From: Vulcanimicrobiota bacterium
GTDB lineage: Bacteria; Vulcanimicrobiota; Vulcanimicrobiia; Vulcanimicrobiales; Vulcanimicrobiaceae
Length of the DNA stretch: 64,000 nt
NCBI GenBank assembly: GCA_027459645.1
Contig: DAIDHQ010000009.1
Span: 1 to 64,000 of the forward strand
Reading direction: 5' to 3'
The stretch's first letter is position 1. Each line of letters starts with the position of its first letter. The notes beneath the pieces were generated by a model. That model saw only the letters and a list, made by a program, of their open reading frames with translations. It did no database searches and was not told the origin of the DNA. A program made the translations under genes and the position numbers. This document shows positions 18,397 through 25,862 of the stretch, piece by piece.

Positions 18397-20193
18397 CTAC
18401 GAGACGTGCTTGATCAGCAGGTCTTCGTGGCGCGTGACTTCGTAGAGGCGCTTTTCGATAAAGACGTCGAGGAGAAGCGGATCGACCTTTCCGCGAGCGG
18501 CAAACTCTTTGGTGAGAATGTCGAGCGCGCGTTCGATCGACATCCCCTTCTTGTACGGACGGTCCGAAGCCGTTAGCGCGTCAAAGACGTCGCTGATCGT
18601 CATCATGCGGACCTGCGGCTTGATCGCTTCACCTTTGAGCTTGCGCGGATAGCCGGTTCCGTCGAGATGCTCGTGATGACCGTAGGCGATATCGGGAACG
18701 TCACGCCACGGCGTCTCCTGCCACGGGATCTCGCGTAAGAACAAGAACGATTGCGTGACGTGTTCTTGCATGCGGTCGCGCTCGTCGTCGGAAAGCGAGC
18801 CGCGTGGAATGCTGAGGTAGTCGTATTCGAAGGGCTCGAGCATCGGTCGCGGCCCGTCGGTATCGCGGTAGCGCAACTCGAGGGCGCGCAGCAGCGTTTC
18901 GTCGGCCGCGTCCGAAACGACGTTCGGTTCGTTGGCGTTTTCGATCTTCTCGAGCAGCGCGCGGATCGTTTCTTTCTCCTCCGCGCTGCGCGCTTGCTCC
19001 ATCGCGAGCAAGAAGCGCAGGCGAATCGTATCCAAGCGCCCGTCGGGCAATTTCTTGGCCTTCGCAAAGATGTATTCGGGCACGGCAACCTTGCCGAAGT
19101 CGTGCAAGAGCGAAGCGTAGCGCACTTCGCGGATATGTTCGGGCGTGAAATGCAGCCCCGCCAAGGGGCCGGATTCGATCCGATTGACCGCTTCGGCTTG
19201 GGCAACGGTGAGCAGGGCAACGCGTTCCGAATGGCCCTGCGTCGACTTGTCGCGAACTTCGATCGCCTTGACCGACGCGTGCACGAACCGCTCGAAGAGA
19301 TTCTGAATCGCGTCGACCAAACGCGCGTTTTCCATCGCAACGGCCGCCTGAGATGCCAGCGCCGTCAGCAGCCGCTCGTCGTGCTGGTCGTAGGGGCTGA
19401 CGATCTCTTCGGTTTGTTGCGGCGACTCCAGTTCCACGTCGAACTTGGGTTTGTGATTGATGAGCTGAATCGCGCCGATCACGTTGCCTTGCAGGTTGCG
19501 CATCGGCACGCACAGGATCGATTTCGTACGATAGTTGTTCTTGTCGTCGAAGGCGCGATTGAAGCGGTACGGCGCCGATTCAGGGATGGCGTACGCATCG
19601 TCGATGCGTACCGCTTCGCCCGTGATGCAGACATAGCCGGCGATGGAGGTCGTCGCCAGCGGCAGCAGCGCATCCAACAGCACGCCGTCGTCCTTGGGAC
19701 CGGTTTGCGCGACCGCGAAGCGCAAACGCTTTTGGCCGTCGTATTCTTCGATGACGTAGAGGCTGCCGGCGTCGGAGTACGTCAGTTCGCGCGCTTTGCG
19801 CACGATCAGCCGCTGCAGCGTCGGAAGATTGCGTTCCGACGAGAGGAGGCGCCCGATTTCGACGAGCTCTTCGCCTTCGCGGGCCGTCCGCGTCAACGCT
19901 CGCGCCGATTCGACGCGTGCGGCGGTACGCAGCGAGGCCAGCAGCGATGCGCCGCTGACCGGCGGGTGCATGATCGCGACCACCTCCGGCTCGTCGGCGA
20001 TCCAGGCGAGGGCCGAATGCTGCGGCGGGAGGATGACGATCGCATTGGCGGGCGGCGCGCCGAGGGTTTTTAGCCCTCCACGCTCGCGCAGACGTTTGAA
20101 GTCGACCGCGTGAACCGAAACGCCGACGTTTCCGAGCAGGAGCGGGAGTTCGCCGAGGTCCAGGTCGTGCGGATATAAGACCAAGGTGGCCAT
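18397..20193 (-). CDS. GAF plus HD-GYP c-di-GMP phosphodiesterase
   Basis: A 598-aa signalling protein. The N terminus (1-90) resembles a degenerate receiver. A GAF domain follows (about 115-295). The HD-GYP domain (about 305-598) holds HSERVALLTV (321), the HD pair in SLLHDFGKVAVPEYI (361-375) and HHEHLDGTGYP (506-516), then SDVFDALTASDRPYK. About 100 extra residues are inserted between the HD and GYP parts. All expected metal and catalytic residues are visible, so it probably hydrolyses c-di-GMP in response to a GAF ligand. Contrast the dead paralogue at 10292-11434. Confidence 0.92.
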   Translation of the reverse strand: MATLVLYPHDLDLGELPLLLGNVGVSVHAVDFKRLRERGGLKTLGAPPANAIVILPPQHSALAWIADEPEVVAIMHPPVSGASLLASLRTAARVESARALTRTAREGEELVEIGRLLSSERNLPTLQRLIVRKARELTYSDAGSLYVIEEYDGQKRLRFAVAQTGPKDDGVLLDALLPLATTSIAGYVCITGEAVRIDDAYAIPESAPYRFNRAFDDKNNYRTKSILCVPMRNLQGNVIGAIQLINHKPKFDVELESPQQTEEIVSPYDQHDERLLTALASQAAVAMENARLVDAIQNLFERFVHASVKAIEVRDKSTQGHSERVALLTVAQAEAVNRIESGPLAGLHFTPEHIREVRYASLLHDFGKVAVPEYIFAKAKKLPDGRLDTIRLRFLLAMEQARSAEEKETIRALLEKIENANEPNVVSDAADETLLRALELRYRDTDGPRPMLEPFEYDYLSIPRGSLSDDERDRMQEHVTQSFLFLREIPWQETPWRDVPDIAYGHHEHLDGTGYPRKLKGEAIKPQVRMMTISDVFDALTASDRPYKKGMSIERALDILTKEFAARGKVDPLLLDVFIEKRLYEVTRHEDLLIKHVS

Positions 20194-20270
20194 CCCTTAG
20201 AGTATCGGCCCGCGAAGCGGGCCGGCATAGGCTGGGAGTGGCCCGGCCGGGCGACGAATCGGTAGCGCTC

Positions 20271-20693
20271 ATGTCCGACGAGCACCAGGCCCCGCCCCTC
20301 GCCCAGCGTATCCGCGCCCTTGCCGACTACTTTGTCGGGACGGACCTCTTGCGGCTTCGCATCGAGCGGGAGAATGAAGAAATAGAACTGGGGCGGCGCC
20401 ACATGCACCCCGATCTGGTCCCCGAGATCCCCGAGGATCTTGCGGCCCATGAAGCGGCTGCGGCGCGCCTCGAACCGATCAAGGCCGATCTGGTCGGCAT
20501 CTTTCACCTGAGCCGTCCGTCGATCTCGGCGGGCGACTTGCTGGAAGGCGACCGCGAACTTGCGTACGTCGAAGCCCTCGGCATCCGCAATCCCGTTCGC
20601 AGCCGCGGCGCCGGCCGCGTCGCATCCATCATGGCCGAAGACGGACGCGCCGTCGAATACGGCCAAGTGCTTTTCGAGATCGATCGCGGATAG
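20271..20693 (+). CDS. BCCP-like biotinyl domain protein lacking the biotinyl lysine
   Basis: A 140-aa protein with the layout of acetyl-CoA carboxylase biotin carboxyl carrier protein: helical N terminus, short linker and C-terminal barrel-sandwich domain (about 68-138, IKADLVGIFHLSRPSI to VEYGQVLFEI). The biotinylation loop, normally EAMKMMN, reads EALGIRN, with Gly104 where biotin-Lys should be. It therefore cannot be biotinylated in the usual way. It lies directly upstream of accC in the same reading frame, separated by TAG. In plants, BADC proteins of this kind dampen ACCase; a similar role is inferred. GTG at 20238 is an alternative start. Confidence 0.8.
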   Translation: MSDEHQAPPLAQRIRALADYFVGTDLLRLRIERENEEIELGRRHMHPDLVPEIPEDLAAHEAAAARLEPIKADLVGIFHLSRPSISAGDLLEGDRELAYVEALGIRNPVRSRGAGRVASIMAEDGRAVEYGQVLFEIDRG

Positions 20694-20702
20694 GAGCCCG
20701 TC

Positions 20703-22055
20703 ATTTTCCAAAAGGTACTCATCGCCAATCGTGGCGAGATCGCCCTGCGCATCAATCGCGCCTGCCGGGAACTCGGCGTGCGAACCGTTGCCATTTTCTC
20801 CGAAGCGGATCGCGAGTCGCTGCACGTGCGTCACGCCGACGAAGGTTTCTGCGTCGGACCGGGACCGGTTCCGCGCTCGTATCTCAACATTCCGAACATT
20901 ATCTCGACCGCGCTCGTCACGGGATGCGATGCGATTCATCCAGGCTACGGCTTCCTGGCGGAAAACGCGCGCTTCGGCGAGATCTGTGCCGATCACGGCT
21001 TGACCTTCATCGGACCAAAGCCCGCGGTCATTGCGGCGATGGGCGATAAGGCGACGGCGAAACGCGTGATGAAAGAAGCCGGCGTAGCGACGACGCCCGG
21101 AACCGACATTCTGGATTCGGTCGAAGAAGCGAAACGCGCGGCAGAAACCGTGGGCTATCCCGTGCTGCTAAAAGCGACGGCCGGCGGCGGCGGCAAGGGC
21201 ATGCGCGTCGTGGAGCGGCCCGAGGATATGGAACGCGCGTATACGAGCGCGACCGCGGAGGCCGAGGCGAGCTTCAAAGACGGTCGCGTCTATATGGAAA
21301 AGCTCATCTTGCATCCGCGCCACATCGAAGTGCAAGTGCTGGGCGACGAATTCGGCAACGTGGTCAGTCTCGGCGAGCGCGACTGCTCGGTACAGAAACC
21401 GTCGCACCAAAAATTGATCGAAGAGTCGCCCGCCCCGCATCTGCCCGAGAAGGTGCGCGAATCGCTGCTGGAAATGGCGGTGCGTGCCTGCCGGCACGTC
21501 GGCTATACCAACGCGGGAACGCTCGAGTTCTTGGTCAGCGGCGAAAACGTGTACTTCATGGAGATGAACACGCGCATCCAGGTCGAGCATCCGGTGACCG
21601 AGATGGTCTACAGCGTCGATCTCGTCAAGGAGCAGATTCGCATCGCCGCCGGTGAAGCGCTCGGCTATACCCAGCGGGATCTCCAGTTGCGCGGCCACGC
21701 GATCGAATGCCGCATCAACGCGGAAGATGCGCGCAATAACTTTTCGCCGCAGGCCGGCACGCTGACGCGCGTCGTGTTCCCCGGTGGACCCGGCGTCCGC
21801 GTCGATACCCACGTGTATTCCGGAACGATGGTTCCGCCGTACTACGATTCGATGATCGCGAAGATCGTAGCGTTCGGCGCGTCGCGCGAAGCCGCGATCG
21901 CACGTATGGAACGCGCATTGCGTGAAACGGTGATCGAAGGCGTGAACACGACGATCGACATGTGCTTGGAGATTCTCGCGACGCCGCAATTCCGCGAAGG
22001 GCGCTACGACATCGGATTCCTGCCCGAGATGTTAACGGCGGGGGCGGCAACGTAG
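20703..22055 (+). CDS. accC: Biotin carboxylase AccC, apparently with ATT start
   Basis: ATP-dependent carboxylation of biotin on BCCP, the first half-reaction of acetyl-CoA carboxylase. The ATP-grasp enzyme shows LKATAGGGGKGMRVV (glycine-rich loop), EMNTRIQVEHPVTE and RGHAIECRINAED. The conserved N terminus (FQKVLIANRGEIALRINRACRELG) is encoded upstream of the first ATG/GTG/TTG. Reading from ATT at 20703 gives 450 aa, exactly the family length, with AGGAG six bases upstream (20692-20696). In-frame TAG at 20691 blocks any earlier start. GTG at 20778 would delete the conserved nucleotide-binding start. Confidence 0.93.
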   Translation: MFQKVLIANRGEIALRINRACRELGVRTVAIFSEADRESLHVRHADEGFCVGPGPVPRSYLNIPNIISTALVTGCDAIHPGYGFLAENARFGEICADHGLTFIGPKPAVIAAMGDKATAKRVMKEAGVATTPGTDILDSVEEAKRAAETVGYPVLLKATAGGGGKGMRVVERPEDMERAYTSATAEAEASFKDGRVYMEKLILHPRHIEVQVLGDEFGNVVSLGERDCSVQKPSHQKLIEESPAPHLPEKVRESLLEMAVRACRHVGYTNAGTLEFLVSGENVYFMEMNTRIQVEHPVTEMVYSVDLVKEQIRIAAGEALGYTQRDLQLRGHAIECRINAEDARNNFSPQAGTLTRVVFPGGPGVRVDTHVYSGTMVPPYYDSMIAKIVAFGASREAAIARMERALRETVIEGVNTTIDMCLEILATPQFREGRYDIGFLPEMLTAGAAT

Positions 22056-22463
22056 ATGCCCTCCAGAAGACAGGGGCGCGAACAGGCGCTGCAGGCGCTC
22101 TATTCGATCGTGGTCGGCCATCGCGAACCGGGCGAAGCGTTGAACGAAGTCGTCGGCGAGGGTGCGGATACGGACCATCGCACCTTCGTCCGCGATCTCG
22201 TGTTCGGAACGCTCGAACACGCAAGCGAGGCCGATCTCGTCTTCGCCCCGCTCTTGGAAGGATGGACCATCGAACGATTACCGACGATCGACCGTTTGCT
22301 CTTAGAGATGGGCACGTTCGAACTGCGTAATCGACCGGAGTTACCGGCCGCGGTCGTCATCAATGAGGCCGTCGAGCTTGCGAAGAAGTTTTCTACCGAG
22401 GAATCCAACCGTTTCGTCAATGGCGTTTTAAATGCAGTCGCGAAAGAAGCGAGCCGCTCGTAA
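22056..22463 (+). CDS. nusB: Transcription antitermination factor NusB
   Basis: Binds boxA RNA with S10 during rRNA antitermination. A 135-aa all-helical protein with the typical RQGREQALQALYSI start and a C-terminal segment (LPAAVVINEAVELAKKFSTEESNRFVNGVLNAV) that is the standard NusB signature. The ATG follows the accC stop directly. The 3' end overlaps the PBP gene by 32 bases, which points to coupled translation. Confidence 0.96.
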   Translation: MPSRRQGREQALQALYSIVVGHREPGEALNEVVGEGADTDHRTFVRDLVFGTLEHASEADLVFAPLLEGWTIERLPTIDRLLLEMGTFELRNRPELPAAVVINEAVELAKKFSTEESNRFVNGVLNAVAKEASRS

Positions 22464-24600
22464 AAAGCGCGGCGGTGCTCCGCGTTGGGTGCGCGGATTG
22501 CTCGTCGCGATTCTACTCATCGTGTTATTCGTCGCGGGAACGATCGCCGGTATCGTCGCGGCCTATTCGCGCAACCTTCCCGATATCAGCCGCATGGCCG
22601 ACTATCAACCCGCCACCTCGACGCGCATCTTCGCGCGCGACGGGACGCAACTGGCGTCGGTCTACCGCGAAAACCGCGTGTACGTGCCGCTATCGCGCAT
22701 ACCGCTCGTCATGCAGCATGCCGTCATCGCCAACGAAGACCACAATTTTTACTACCATCACGGCGTGGACTTCGGCGGCATCGTTCGCGCGGGATTTGCC
22801 GACCTCACGCATCAGGAGTTTCAGGGCGCCTCGACGATCACGCAGCAGCTCGCGCGCAAGCTCTTCCTAAACGACCAAATCTCGCTTTCCCGCAAGATCC
22901 AGGAAGCGCTGCTTGCGATGGAGATCGAGCGCTACTACACCAAAGACGAGATCCTCGAGCGCTATCTCAACATGATTTATCTCGGCGCCGGAGCCTACGG
23001 CGTCGATGCGGCCGCGCACACGTATTTCGGCGAGAGCGTCGAGAAGCTGACGCTGCCTCAGGCCGCCATGCTGGCGGGGGTAATCGCCGCGCCGTCGGAT
23101 TACTCGCCCTTCGCGAATTTTAAACTCGCGAAGGACCGGCAAGAGCACGTGCTCGACCGCATGGTCGATAGCGGCTATATCACCAAAGCGCAAGCGCGCG
23201 CCGCAAAAGCCGCCAACGTGCGGTTGGTTCATCAGCGTCCGGCGGGCCTCGAAGGCTATCTGTATCCGTACTACACCACGTACGTGATCGCGCAGCTCGA
23301 CAAACTCTTCGGCAAGCAAGCCGTCGAGGAAGGCGGCCTGCAAGTGTATACGTCGCTCGATATCCGCATGCAGAAGCTCGCTCAAGAAGCGGTCGATTGG
23401 GGCGTTCGCACGGCAAAGGCCGAGGGCATCAACGGTCATGAAGCCGCGCTCGTCGCGATTCGGCCTTCGACGGGCGAGATTCTTGCGATGGTCGGCGGCG
23501 ACGGCTTTACGTTGAACAACCAATTCAACCGCGCGTGGCAGGCACGCCGGCAGCCCGGCTCGTCGTTCAAGGCGTACGTCTATACGGCAGCCATCGATTC
23601 GGGCATTCCGCCCAATACGATCATGGACGACACGCCCGTCAGTTATCCGATGGGCGACGGCACGATGTGGTCTCCGATGGACGACGACAACACGTTCATG
23701 GGGCCGATCACCTTGCGCACGGCGCTCGCGCTTTCGCGCAACGTCGTTGCCGTGAAGCTTGCGGATCGCATCGGTCTCGATAAGGTCATCGAGTACGCGC
23801 ATCGCATGGGCGTGACGGCGCCGCTCGAAGCGAATCTGTCGCTCGCACTCGGATCCTCGGTGGTCAGCGTGCTCGATCAGGCGAGCGGCTATTCGACGCT
23901 TGCAAATCAAGGCGTACACATCGATCCCTCGGCAATTCGGCTCGTGCGCGATTCACTCGGTAACGCCGTGCTGGACAATCAATATCCGCAGGCGACCGAA
24001 GTCGTCAGCGCCGGCACGGCCTATATCATGACGAGTATGCTGGAAGACGTCATCAAGCACGGCACGGGCTACCCCAACGCGATCATCGGGCGTCCCGCCG
24101 CTGGAAAAACGGGAACGACGTCGGACTTCCGCGACGCGTGGTTCGTCGGCTATACGCCGGATCTCGTCACGGCGGTGTGGATGGGCAACGATAACTACTC
24201 GCGCATGTACGAATCGTACGGCGGGGATATTCCCGCCCGCATCTGGGCCCGATTCATGAAAGCTGCGCTCAAAGGCGTCCCCAAACACAACTTCACGTTC
24301 CCGCAAGGGCAGGTCGTCAAAGTGACGTCGTGTTCGGGCAAAACGGATCTCTATCTCAATGGAACGCAGCCGCTGAGCGGATGCGCCGACAGCCATCCGT
24401 ACCGAGCCGCGATCGCGCCGACGCCCGATGCGGCCGCCGCCGCGACGCTGCCGCCGGCGGTGTCGCCGCCGCCCGCCACATTGCCGCCGGGCGTTACCGA
24501 CGCGCCGCTTGCGACGCTCGGACCCGTGACGCCCGCGCCGGCAAGTGCCGCATCGGCTGGTGCAGCGCCGGCGCCGGCCACATCGGCGCAGCCTCGATGA
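22432..24600 (+). CDS. Class A penicillin-binding protein (PBP1a family)
   Basis: Bifunctional peptidoglycan glycosyltransferase/transpeptidase in the inner membrane. A basic tail and one span (about residues 22-44) precede the GT51 domain (about 75-245), with catalytic Glu in NEDHNFYYHHGVDF and QGASTITQQLARKLF. The transpeptidase domain has S-x-x-K at 377-380 (PGSSFK), SRN at 435-437 and KTGTTSDF at 559-566. The final 60 residues are Pro/Ala-rich and low complexity. Length of 722 aa is normal. It overlaps nusB, and its stop overlaps xseA (ATGA). Confidence 0.95.
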   Translation: MQSRKKRAARKKRGGAPRWVRGLLVAILLIVLFVAGTIAGIVAAYSRNLPDISRMADYQPATSTRIFARDGTQLASVYRENRVYVPLSRIPLVMQHAVIANEDHNFYYHHGVDFGGIVRAGFADLTHQEFQGASTITQQLARKLFLNDQISLSRKIQEALLAMEIERYYTKDEILERYLNMIYLGAGAYGVDAAAHTYFGESVEKLTLPQAAMLAGVIAAPSDYSPFANFKLAKDRQEHVLDRMVDSGYITKAQARAAKAANVRLVHQRPAGLEGYLYPYYTTYVIAQLDKLFGKQAVEEGGLQVYTSLDIRMQKLAQEAVDWGVRTAKAEGINGHEAALVAIRPSTGEILAMVGGDGFTLNNQFNRAWQARRQPGSSFKAYVYTAAIDSGIPPNTIMDDTPVSYPMGDGTMWSPMDDDNTFMGPITLRTALALSRNVVAVKLADRIGLDKVIEYAHRMGVTAPLEANLSLALGSSVVSVLDQASGYSTLANQGVHIDPSAIRLVRDSLGNAVLDNQYPQATEVVSAGTAYIMTSMLEDVIKHGTGYPNAIIGRPAAGKTGTTSDFRDAWFVGYTPDLVTAVWMGNDNYSRMYESYGGDIPARIWARFMKAALKGVPKHNFTFPQGQVVKVTSCSGKTDLYLNGTQPLSGCADSHPYRAAIAPTPDAAAAATLPPAVSPPPATLPPGVTDAPLATLGPVTPAPASAASAGAAPAPATSAQPR

Positions 24601-25862
24601 CGGGCGACGACGAACGCACCGTCTACGGCGTCAGCCGCGTCGTGGGGTACATCAAGCGGCTCATCGCCGAAAACAAGCAGCTCGCGCGGATCTCCGTTCG
24701 CGGTGAAGTCTCCGATCGCAGCGACGCCAACGGGCGCATCTATTTCGATCTGAAGGAAGGCGCCGACATCCTCAAATGCGTCGTGTGGTCGAACGCGGCT
24801 GCGAAGCTGCCGGCTTTTCGAAATGGCGATGCGGTCATCGTCGGCGGCGAGTTCACGACCTATCCCGCGCGCAGCATCTACCAACTCGACGTAAAATCGC
24901 TCGAGCTGACGGGAATCGGGCAACTCTACGCGCGGTTTGAAGCACTCCGTAAAAAACTGGAAGCCGAAGGGCTCTTCGAGCGCGCGCGCAAGCGGCCCAT
25001 GCCGCGCTTCCCTCGCCGCATCGCCTTGATTTCCGCTCGCGGCAAGGGTGCGGAAGATTTCGAAACGCAGATGCGCCGCCGCGCGCCGCACGTGCGCATC
25101 GAGTTCATCGAAACGCTGGTGCAAGGGCTGGACGCGCCGGTCGAAATCGCGAAGGCGCTCGACCGGGCCTCGGCGATGGACGTCGACGTCATCGTGCTCG
25201 CGCGCGGCGGCGGAAGCTACGAAGATCTCTTCGCATTCAACGAAGAACCGGTCGTGCGCGCAATCGTGCGCGCGAAGCACCCGGTGCTGACCGCGATCGC
25301 GCACACCGCGAATCTGCATCTCGCCGATGCCGCGGCCGACGAAGTTCGGGAAACGCCGTCGCTCGGCGCCACCTATTTCGGGGAGATCCGCGACGCCTAC
25401 GCACGGCGCTTGGAACTGCTCGTCGCGCGCCTCGATCGCAGCCTGCGCGAAAAACAGCGTCTTCGCGTGCAACGTTTCGACTACGTCACGTCGTCCTTCG
25501 ACCGCACGGCGCGCGCGTTCGTCAATCAGAAACGGCAGCGCTTGCTCGTCCTCGAACGCCGCCTCAACGCCCACACGCCGGTGCAGCGAATCAACGCGCG
25601 GGCCCGCGCGCTCCAAGCGGCGTCGTCGCAGCTCAACGTGCTCGCGCGCGGGTTCACCAAACCGTCGCTATCGCGGGTGGAGCTGCTGGCCACCAAGCTC
25701 GACCTCTACGATCCGCAACGTCCGCTCGCGCAGGGCTACGCGATGGTCTTCGCCGGTGGGAAGCTCATCCGCGACGCGGGCTCGGTGCCGGTCGGAAGCG
25801 CCGTGGAAGCTCGCCTTGCGCGCGGAACGCTTCTGGCTCGCGTCGAAGGACATCGCGAATGA
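24597..25862 (+). CDS. xseA: Exodeoxyribonuclease VII large subunit
   Basis: Catalytic subunit of single-strand-specific exonuclease VII. An OB-fold domain at the N terminus (about residues 10-105, VYGVSRVVGYIKRLIAEN onward) precedes the catalytic core with PRRIALISARGKGAEDFETQM, the DVIVLARGGGSYEDLFAFNEEPVVRAI motif and a coiled region. Length of 421 aa is typical. The ATG at 24597 overlaps the PBP stop. An upstream in-frame extension lies inside the PBP gene and is rejected. The stop overlaps xseB as ATGA. Confidence 0.96.
   Translation: MTGDDERTVYGVSRVVGYIKRLIAENKQLARISVRGEVSDRSDANGRIYFDLKEGADILKCVVWSNAAAKLPAFRNGDAVIVGGEFTTYPARSIYQLDVKSLELTGIGQLYARFEALRKKLEAEGLFERARKRPMPRFPRRIALISARGKGAEDFETQMRRRAPHVRIEFIETLVQGLDAPVEIAKALDRASAMDVDVIVLARGGGSYEDLFAFNEEPVVRAIVRAKHPVLTAIAHTANLHLADAAADEVRETPSLGATYFGEIRDAYARRLELLVARLDRSLREKQRLRVQRFDYVTSSFDRTARAFVNQKRQRLLVLERRLNAHTPVQRINARARALQAASSQLNVLARGFTKPSLSRVELLATKLDLYDPQRPLAQGYAMVFAGGKLIRDAGSVPVGSAVEARLARGTLLARVEGHRE

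Follow-up and report, generated by a model that had tools for sequence, protein, structure and literature searches.

A glycine-bearing BCCP-like protein encoded directly before accC in Eremiobacterota, a putative non-biotinylated subunit of acetyl-CoA carboxylase

The 64,000-nucleotide stretch of DNA analysed here (the window) carries, directly before the biotin carboxylase gene accC, a gene for a BCCP-like protein in which glycine takes the place of the biotinyl lysine. By analogy with plant BADC proteins, we consider it fairly probable that this product serves the biotin-carboxylase half of bacterial acetyl-CoA carboxylase (ACC) as a dedicated, non-biotinylated subunit and assembles or tunes AccC jointly with the true BCCP. 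This reading is supported by the BCCP fold, the retained N-terminal helix and hairpin, the missing biotin lysine, the position before accC, purifying selection and the presence of a true BCCP in the same genome. Against it count the lysine seen in 9 of 80 orthologues, since biotinylation is possible in those lineages, and the only moderate conservation of the helix and hairpin. The coordinates of the locus are given in table 1.

Table 1. Features of the accC locus in the window
Feature	Position	Strand	Basis
accC-linked BCCP-like protein without biotinyl lysine	20271..20693	+	ORF, Pfam/TIGR matches; start agrees with aligned relatives
N-terminal helix, residues 9-22	20295..20336	+	AlphaFold2 model, block pLDDT about 80
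Beta-hairpin, residues 28-41	20352..20393	+	AlphaFold2 model; alignment to N-terminal region of E. coli BCCP 4hr7_B
BCCP barrel, residues 67-138, thumb loop 5 residues shorter	20469..20684	+	pLDDT 95-98; Z 13.4 to 1bdo
GGC codon (Gly104), column of biotinyl lysine	20580..20582	+	Alignment
AGGAG, Shine-Dalgarno-like, 6 nt before accC ATT	20692..20696	+	Direct reading
accC, biotin carboxylase, ATT start at 20703	20703..22055	+	TIGR00514 658 bits, cut-off 626.5
nusB	22056..22463	+	TIGR01951 125 bits, cut-off 88
PBP1A-family penicillin-binding protein	22432..24600	+	TIGR02074 628 bits, cut-off 509
xseA, ORF start uncertain	24573..25862	+	TIGR00237 325 bits, cut-off 180

The initial annotation had read this open reading frame as a BCCP-like protein with the motif EALGIRN and had placed Gly104 at the biotinyl-lysine site, and both statements hold. 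The protein comprises 140 residues from an ATG start (...YVEALGIRNPVRS...) and matches Pfam Biotin_lipoyl with 29.1 bits (cut-off 22.1). A profile of 38 relatives aligns at positions 9-135 with the E. coli BCCP chain 4hr7_B (E 7.5e-14), from the BC-BCCP complex that is also the top sequence match among solved structures. Gly104 falls on the biotinyl-lysine column of this chain and is invariant in all 38 aligned relatives. The BCCP fold on which the annotation depended is likewise borne out by the AlphaFold2 model, whose barrel matches E. coli BCCP 1bdo over 75 residues (Z 13.4, rmsd 2.1) and also Arabidopsis BCCP1 9a87 (Z 12.3; Foldseek, VIA-align); a loose linker is predicted between hairpin and barrel. 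Glu39 and Arg42, in the hairpin and just after it, are nearly invariant among the aligned relatives.

With AccB (TIGR00531; E. coli 4hr7/1bdo) the protein shares the helix-hairpin-barrel layout and the place before accC. In contrast, the biotinyl lysine is missing, the thumb is shortened in families f1-f3, and the TIGR00531 score of 36.1 bits is far under the cut-off of 115.2, a strict threshold here given that the genome's own true BCCP reaches 112.5, slightly below it. The five-residue thumb gap stands out in alignments against E. coli BCCP 4hr7_B and against the hisS-linked paralogue, whose thumb is intact, and it is absent from L066, L081, L085 and L099 of other families (alignment A2), so that thumb loss is not general. 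Of the sequence features of a biotinylated BCCP, then, the window protein has the barrel fold and lacks the lysine within E-X-M-K-M/L, a TIGR00531 score above cut-off and the full thumb; of those of a BADC-like protein it has the likeness to BCCP, the missing biotin lysine and a true BCCP in the same genome. The accC-linked proteins of family f3, from the same class (L054, L055, L057-L064, L067, L070, L071 and L075), possess an additional C-terminal tail that ends in EPPR[IL] in most members and is lacking in the window family; it is possibly a docking motif.

The true carrier, which the initial annotation had placed outside the window and suggested looking for as a second accB with EAMKM, was found on contig C19 of the same genome between hisS and gmhA, with the slightly different motif EAMKL (EAMKLFNEI). 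Its model contains a helix and a hairpin in the same order as in the window protein. The genome also encodes accD-accA (contig C30), a single birA match and one stand-alone accC; each of the remaining close AccC-like frames carries a fused BCCP domain.

Orthologs of the window protein are widespread in the phylum. We sampled 89 Eremiobacterota genomes, most of them apparently metagenome assemblies (60 relatives and 29 further genomes from a phylum-wide draw). In 80 of them we located and read the accC-linked paralogue: 58 of the 60 relatives, 15 of 22 genomes in families f9-f16 and all seven additional window-family genomes. The BCCP-like gene is followed by accC in every one of the 80 loci examined. 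The paralogue was not found in nine of the 89 genomes (G003, G033, G061, G064, G066, G070, G071, G072 and G085), where completeness is 82% for G003, 63% for G033 and 82% with 7% contamination for G085. An AccC search covering the first eight of these nine found no stand-alone accC in any of them; its outcome was no match at all, weak matches to ATP-grasp proteins (21-29% identity), or frames with 48-50% identity, either larger than a stand-alone AccC or fragments. In G061, G064, G066 and G070-G072, with assemblies 86-98% complete, no AccC was found and, among the matches listed, no stand-alone BCCP (G070-G072 have further, weak BCCP matches), and it is possible that some Eremiobacterota lineages lost this acetyl-CoA carboxylase. 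When 84,980 species genomes were scanned with a pattern that required the Gly form, 104 stretches and 50 confirmed loci resulted. Their titles are mostly Eremiobacterota, Eremiobacteria or Vulcanimicrobiota; several read simply 'bacterium', while UBP12 occurs once and Rhodospirillales twice. Plasmid records listed ordinary AccC and BCCP. In the openly accessible literature searched, we found no report of a bacterial lysine-less BCCP paralogue.

The residue at the biotin site provides additional clues on function. Across the 80 accC-linked proteins it is Gly in 54, Arg in 8, Asn in 7, Ser in 2 and Lys in 9; Gly is found in 42 of 42 window-family and 4 of 4 same-order proteins read, while other families differ. 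Family f3, in the same class, has eight Lys and six Arg, and its sister sequences L054 (Lys) and L055 (Arg) are 92% identical. For the 73 rows compared on the protein tree, parsimony requires a minimum of 10 substitutions at this site and of 4 switches between Lys and any other residue. Since lysine and arginine switch between sister species, biotin cannot be the common function of the accC-linked protein. The hisS-linked paralogues, by comparison, have Lys in 55 of 55 read, a set drawn from part of the genomes (33 among the first 60); hisS adjoins 52 of these 55, the exceptions being L189, L191 and L196. The conservation of Gly that the initial annotation named as support for a dedicated role is seen among the 38 aligned relatives, and the lysine in orthologues that it named as contrary evidence is absent from 71 of the 80. 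In the other nine it is present, although eight of these belong to f3, with Arg in close relatives.

The accC-linked paralogue is under purifying selection. Ratios of dN/dS range from 0.07 to 0.24 in nine accC-linked pairs and from 0.05 to 0.18 in seven hisS-linked (true BCCP) pairs, being rough where dS is high (several pairs, up to 1.6); together with the conservation they rule out a pseudogene. The frequency of the top residue is 0.52-0.54 in helix and hairpin, 0.68 in the barrel and 0.94 in the tip EALGIRN, the most conserved stretch measured, and the N-terminal part of the true BCCP is no better conserved (0.51). The conservation of EALGIRN points to a function at the barrel tip which the hairpin model presented below does not explain. 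In the best tree a branch with SH-aLRT 95 leaves all 73 accC-linked rows on the same side. A tree constrained to group the two paralogues of the first class was nevertheless not rejected by the AU test (p 0.56) and was slightly better. We have therefore dropped a single duplication as something shown by the tree, which fits one early or several later events; the constant synteny favours one duplication over several.

Known systems suggest how such a subunit might work. The hairpin of the accC-linked protein, perhaps with the barrel, would bind AccC and join AccC dimers. The protein would stand beside the biotinylated BCCP, both contributing to AccC assembly and only one carrying biotin, so that the AccC complex might be assembled or tuned without carboxybiotin being carried by this partner. 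Such an action would resemble those of plant BADC and of the Chloroflexus hairpin that makes the BC tetramer. The accessible text of PMC11926652 describes plant BADC, which has no biotin motif and is not biotinylated, as an assembly glue for BC and BCCP by thumb capping; it also states that the AlphaFold2-predicted N-terminal helix of Arabidopsis BCCP is unseen by NMR in solution. Like the window protein, BADC combines a BCCP-like fold and the loss of the biotin motif with coexistence alongside a true BCCP and a stand-alone BC subunit. Unlike BADC, the accC-linked protein is bacterial, lies in the accC operon and is spread across one phylum, and we liken the two by analogy; binding is known by experiment for BADC and is proposed for our protein. 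Chloroflexus aurantiacus BC1 has a comparable hairpin ahead of a BCCP core, shown there to join BC dimers, but in that protein the hairpin belongs to a BC fusion and precedes a biotinylated core. According to the portions of PMC11077971 available, two BC dimers are bridged by a barrel built from four BCCP hairpins, which raises activity and does not need the BCCP core; the hairpin contacts BC through Glu, Gly and Arg residues. The same portions report that the E. coli BC-BCCP tetramer is stabilised by BCCP cores, not hairpins, and the hairpin route is thus one of two. Actinobacterial acyl-CoA carboxylases offer a further parallel in the AccE-type subunits, small non-catalytic assembly aids which, in the accessible part of PMC7835884, bind the carboxyltransferase subunit instead; the likeness drawn here to the accC-linked protein is one of proposed function.

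In an alternative scenario, which we regard as unlikely, the accC-linked protein is mainly an inhibitor: by competing with the true BCCP over AccC it would cut ACC flux under some condition. It retains the N-terminal elements and barrel of BCCP, as a competitor might, and plant BADC competes with BCCP for BC access in the accessible text of PMC7712654; that of PMC11926652, in contrast, argues that its own plant data do not fit an inhibitory model. The gene, moreover, directly precedes accC at all loci and is absent from genomes where accC is lacking, and on these grounds we favour assembly over competition: always beside accC, its product probably accompanies AccC at all times, a pattern more in keeping with a constitutive subunit than with a switch. 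The plant dispute between assembly and inhibition (PMC11926652 versus PMC7712654, as far as their accessible texts go) might find in this accC-tied bacterial twin a simple test system by co-expression. Less probable again is a departure from ACC, with the EALGIRN tip binding another protein or ligand and the accC linkage reflecting ancestral gene order only. The tip is indeed the most conserved stretch, and what was the biotin site is now mostly Gly, Asn, Ser or Arg, but the protein is absent along with stand-alone accC in eight of nine genomes, keeps the BCCP N-terminal elements and has ACC BCCPs as nearest matches.

The lysine at nine of 80 loci could also mark a second real carrier in some lineages, with a decaying remnant in others. 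This we hold to be very improbable: the dN/dS range and the 38 of 38 conserved glycines oppose decay, and the alternation of Lys and Arg in sisters as close as L054 and L055 opposes a carrier. That most genomes appear to be metagenome assemblies might suggest a sequencing or assembly artefact, an explanation with practically no remaining likelihood and refuted by replication, the residue and gene order recurring in dozens of independent genomes. Overall, by analogy, the reading offered by the initial annotation, of a lysine-less BCCP acting as a putative negative regulator or structural substitute like BADC, is supported. Annotating the accC-linked gene as accB in these genomes puts the carrier function on the wrong gene. 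Beyond the subunit reading, we put forward more tentatively, and with some doubt, that the phylum has an ACC with an obligatory heteromeric core, in which non-carrier and biotinylated BCCPs would share a hairpin barrel bridging AccC dimers. Bacteria would then have arrived at the BADC principle independently, before the classes of this phylum diverged.

The start of accC deserves comment. The stop of the BCCP-like gene lies 9 nt upstream of accC, followed by the order accC-nusB-PBP-xseA, and no sigma-70-like site was found in a promoter scan of 20000-22600. Ahead of accC there is an in-frame TAG (20691-20693) and then no ATG, GTG or TTG before 20778, while the ATT at 20703 agrees with the N-terminus of AccC relatives; together these make ATT the only credible start. 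Fusion by read-through of the stop was considered, as the two genes share one frame with a single TAG in the window, but they lie in different frames in many relatives and such an arrangement is not conserved. Of 72 accC matches in the accC-linked set, 13 have ATT or ATC at the position of the start codon, as do 21 of 50 from the genome_contigs set, and several of these loci have an in-frame stop 1-14 codons upstream with no standard start in between. This conserved rare start codon may set the ratio of AccC to the BCCP-like protein. Divergent from the BCCP-like gene, at 18397-20193 on the minus strand, lies a gene that from the look of its sequence we take to encode a GAF/HD-GYP-like protein, and matches to it were found upstream in many relatives.
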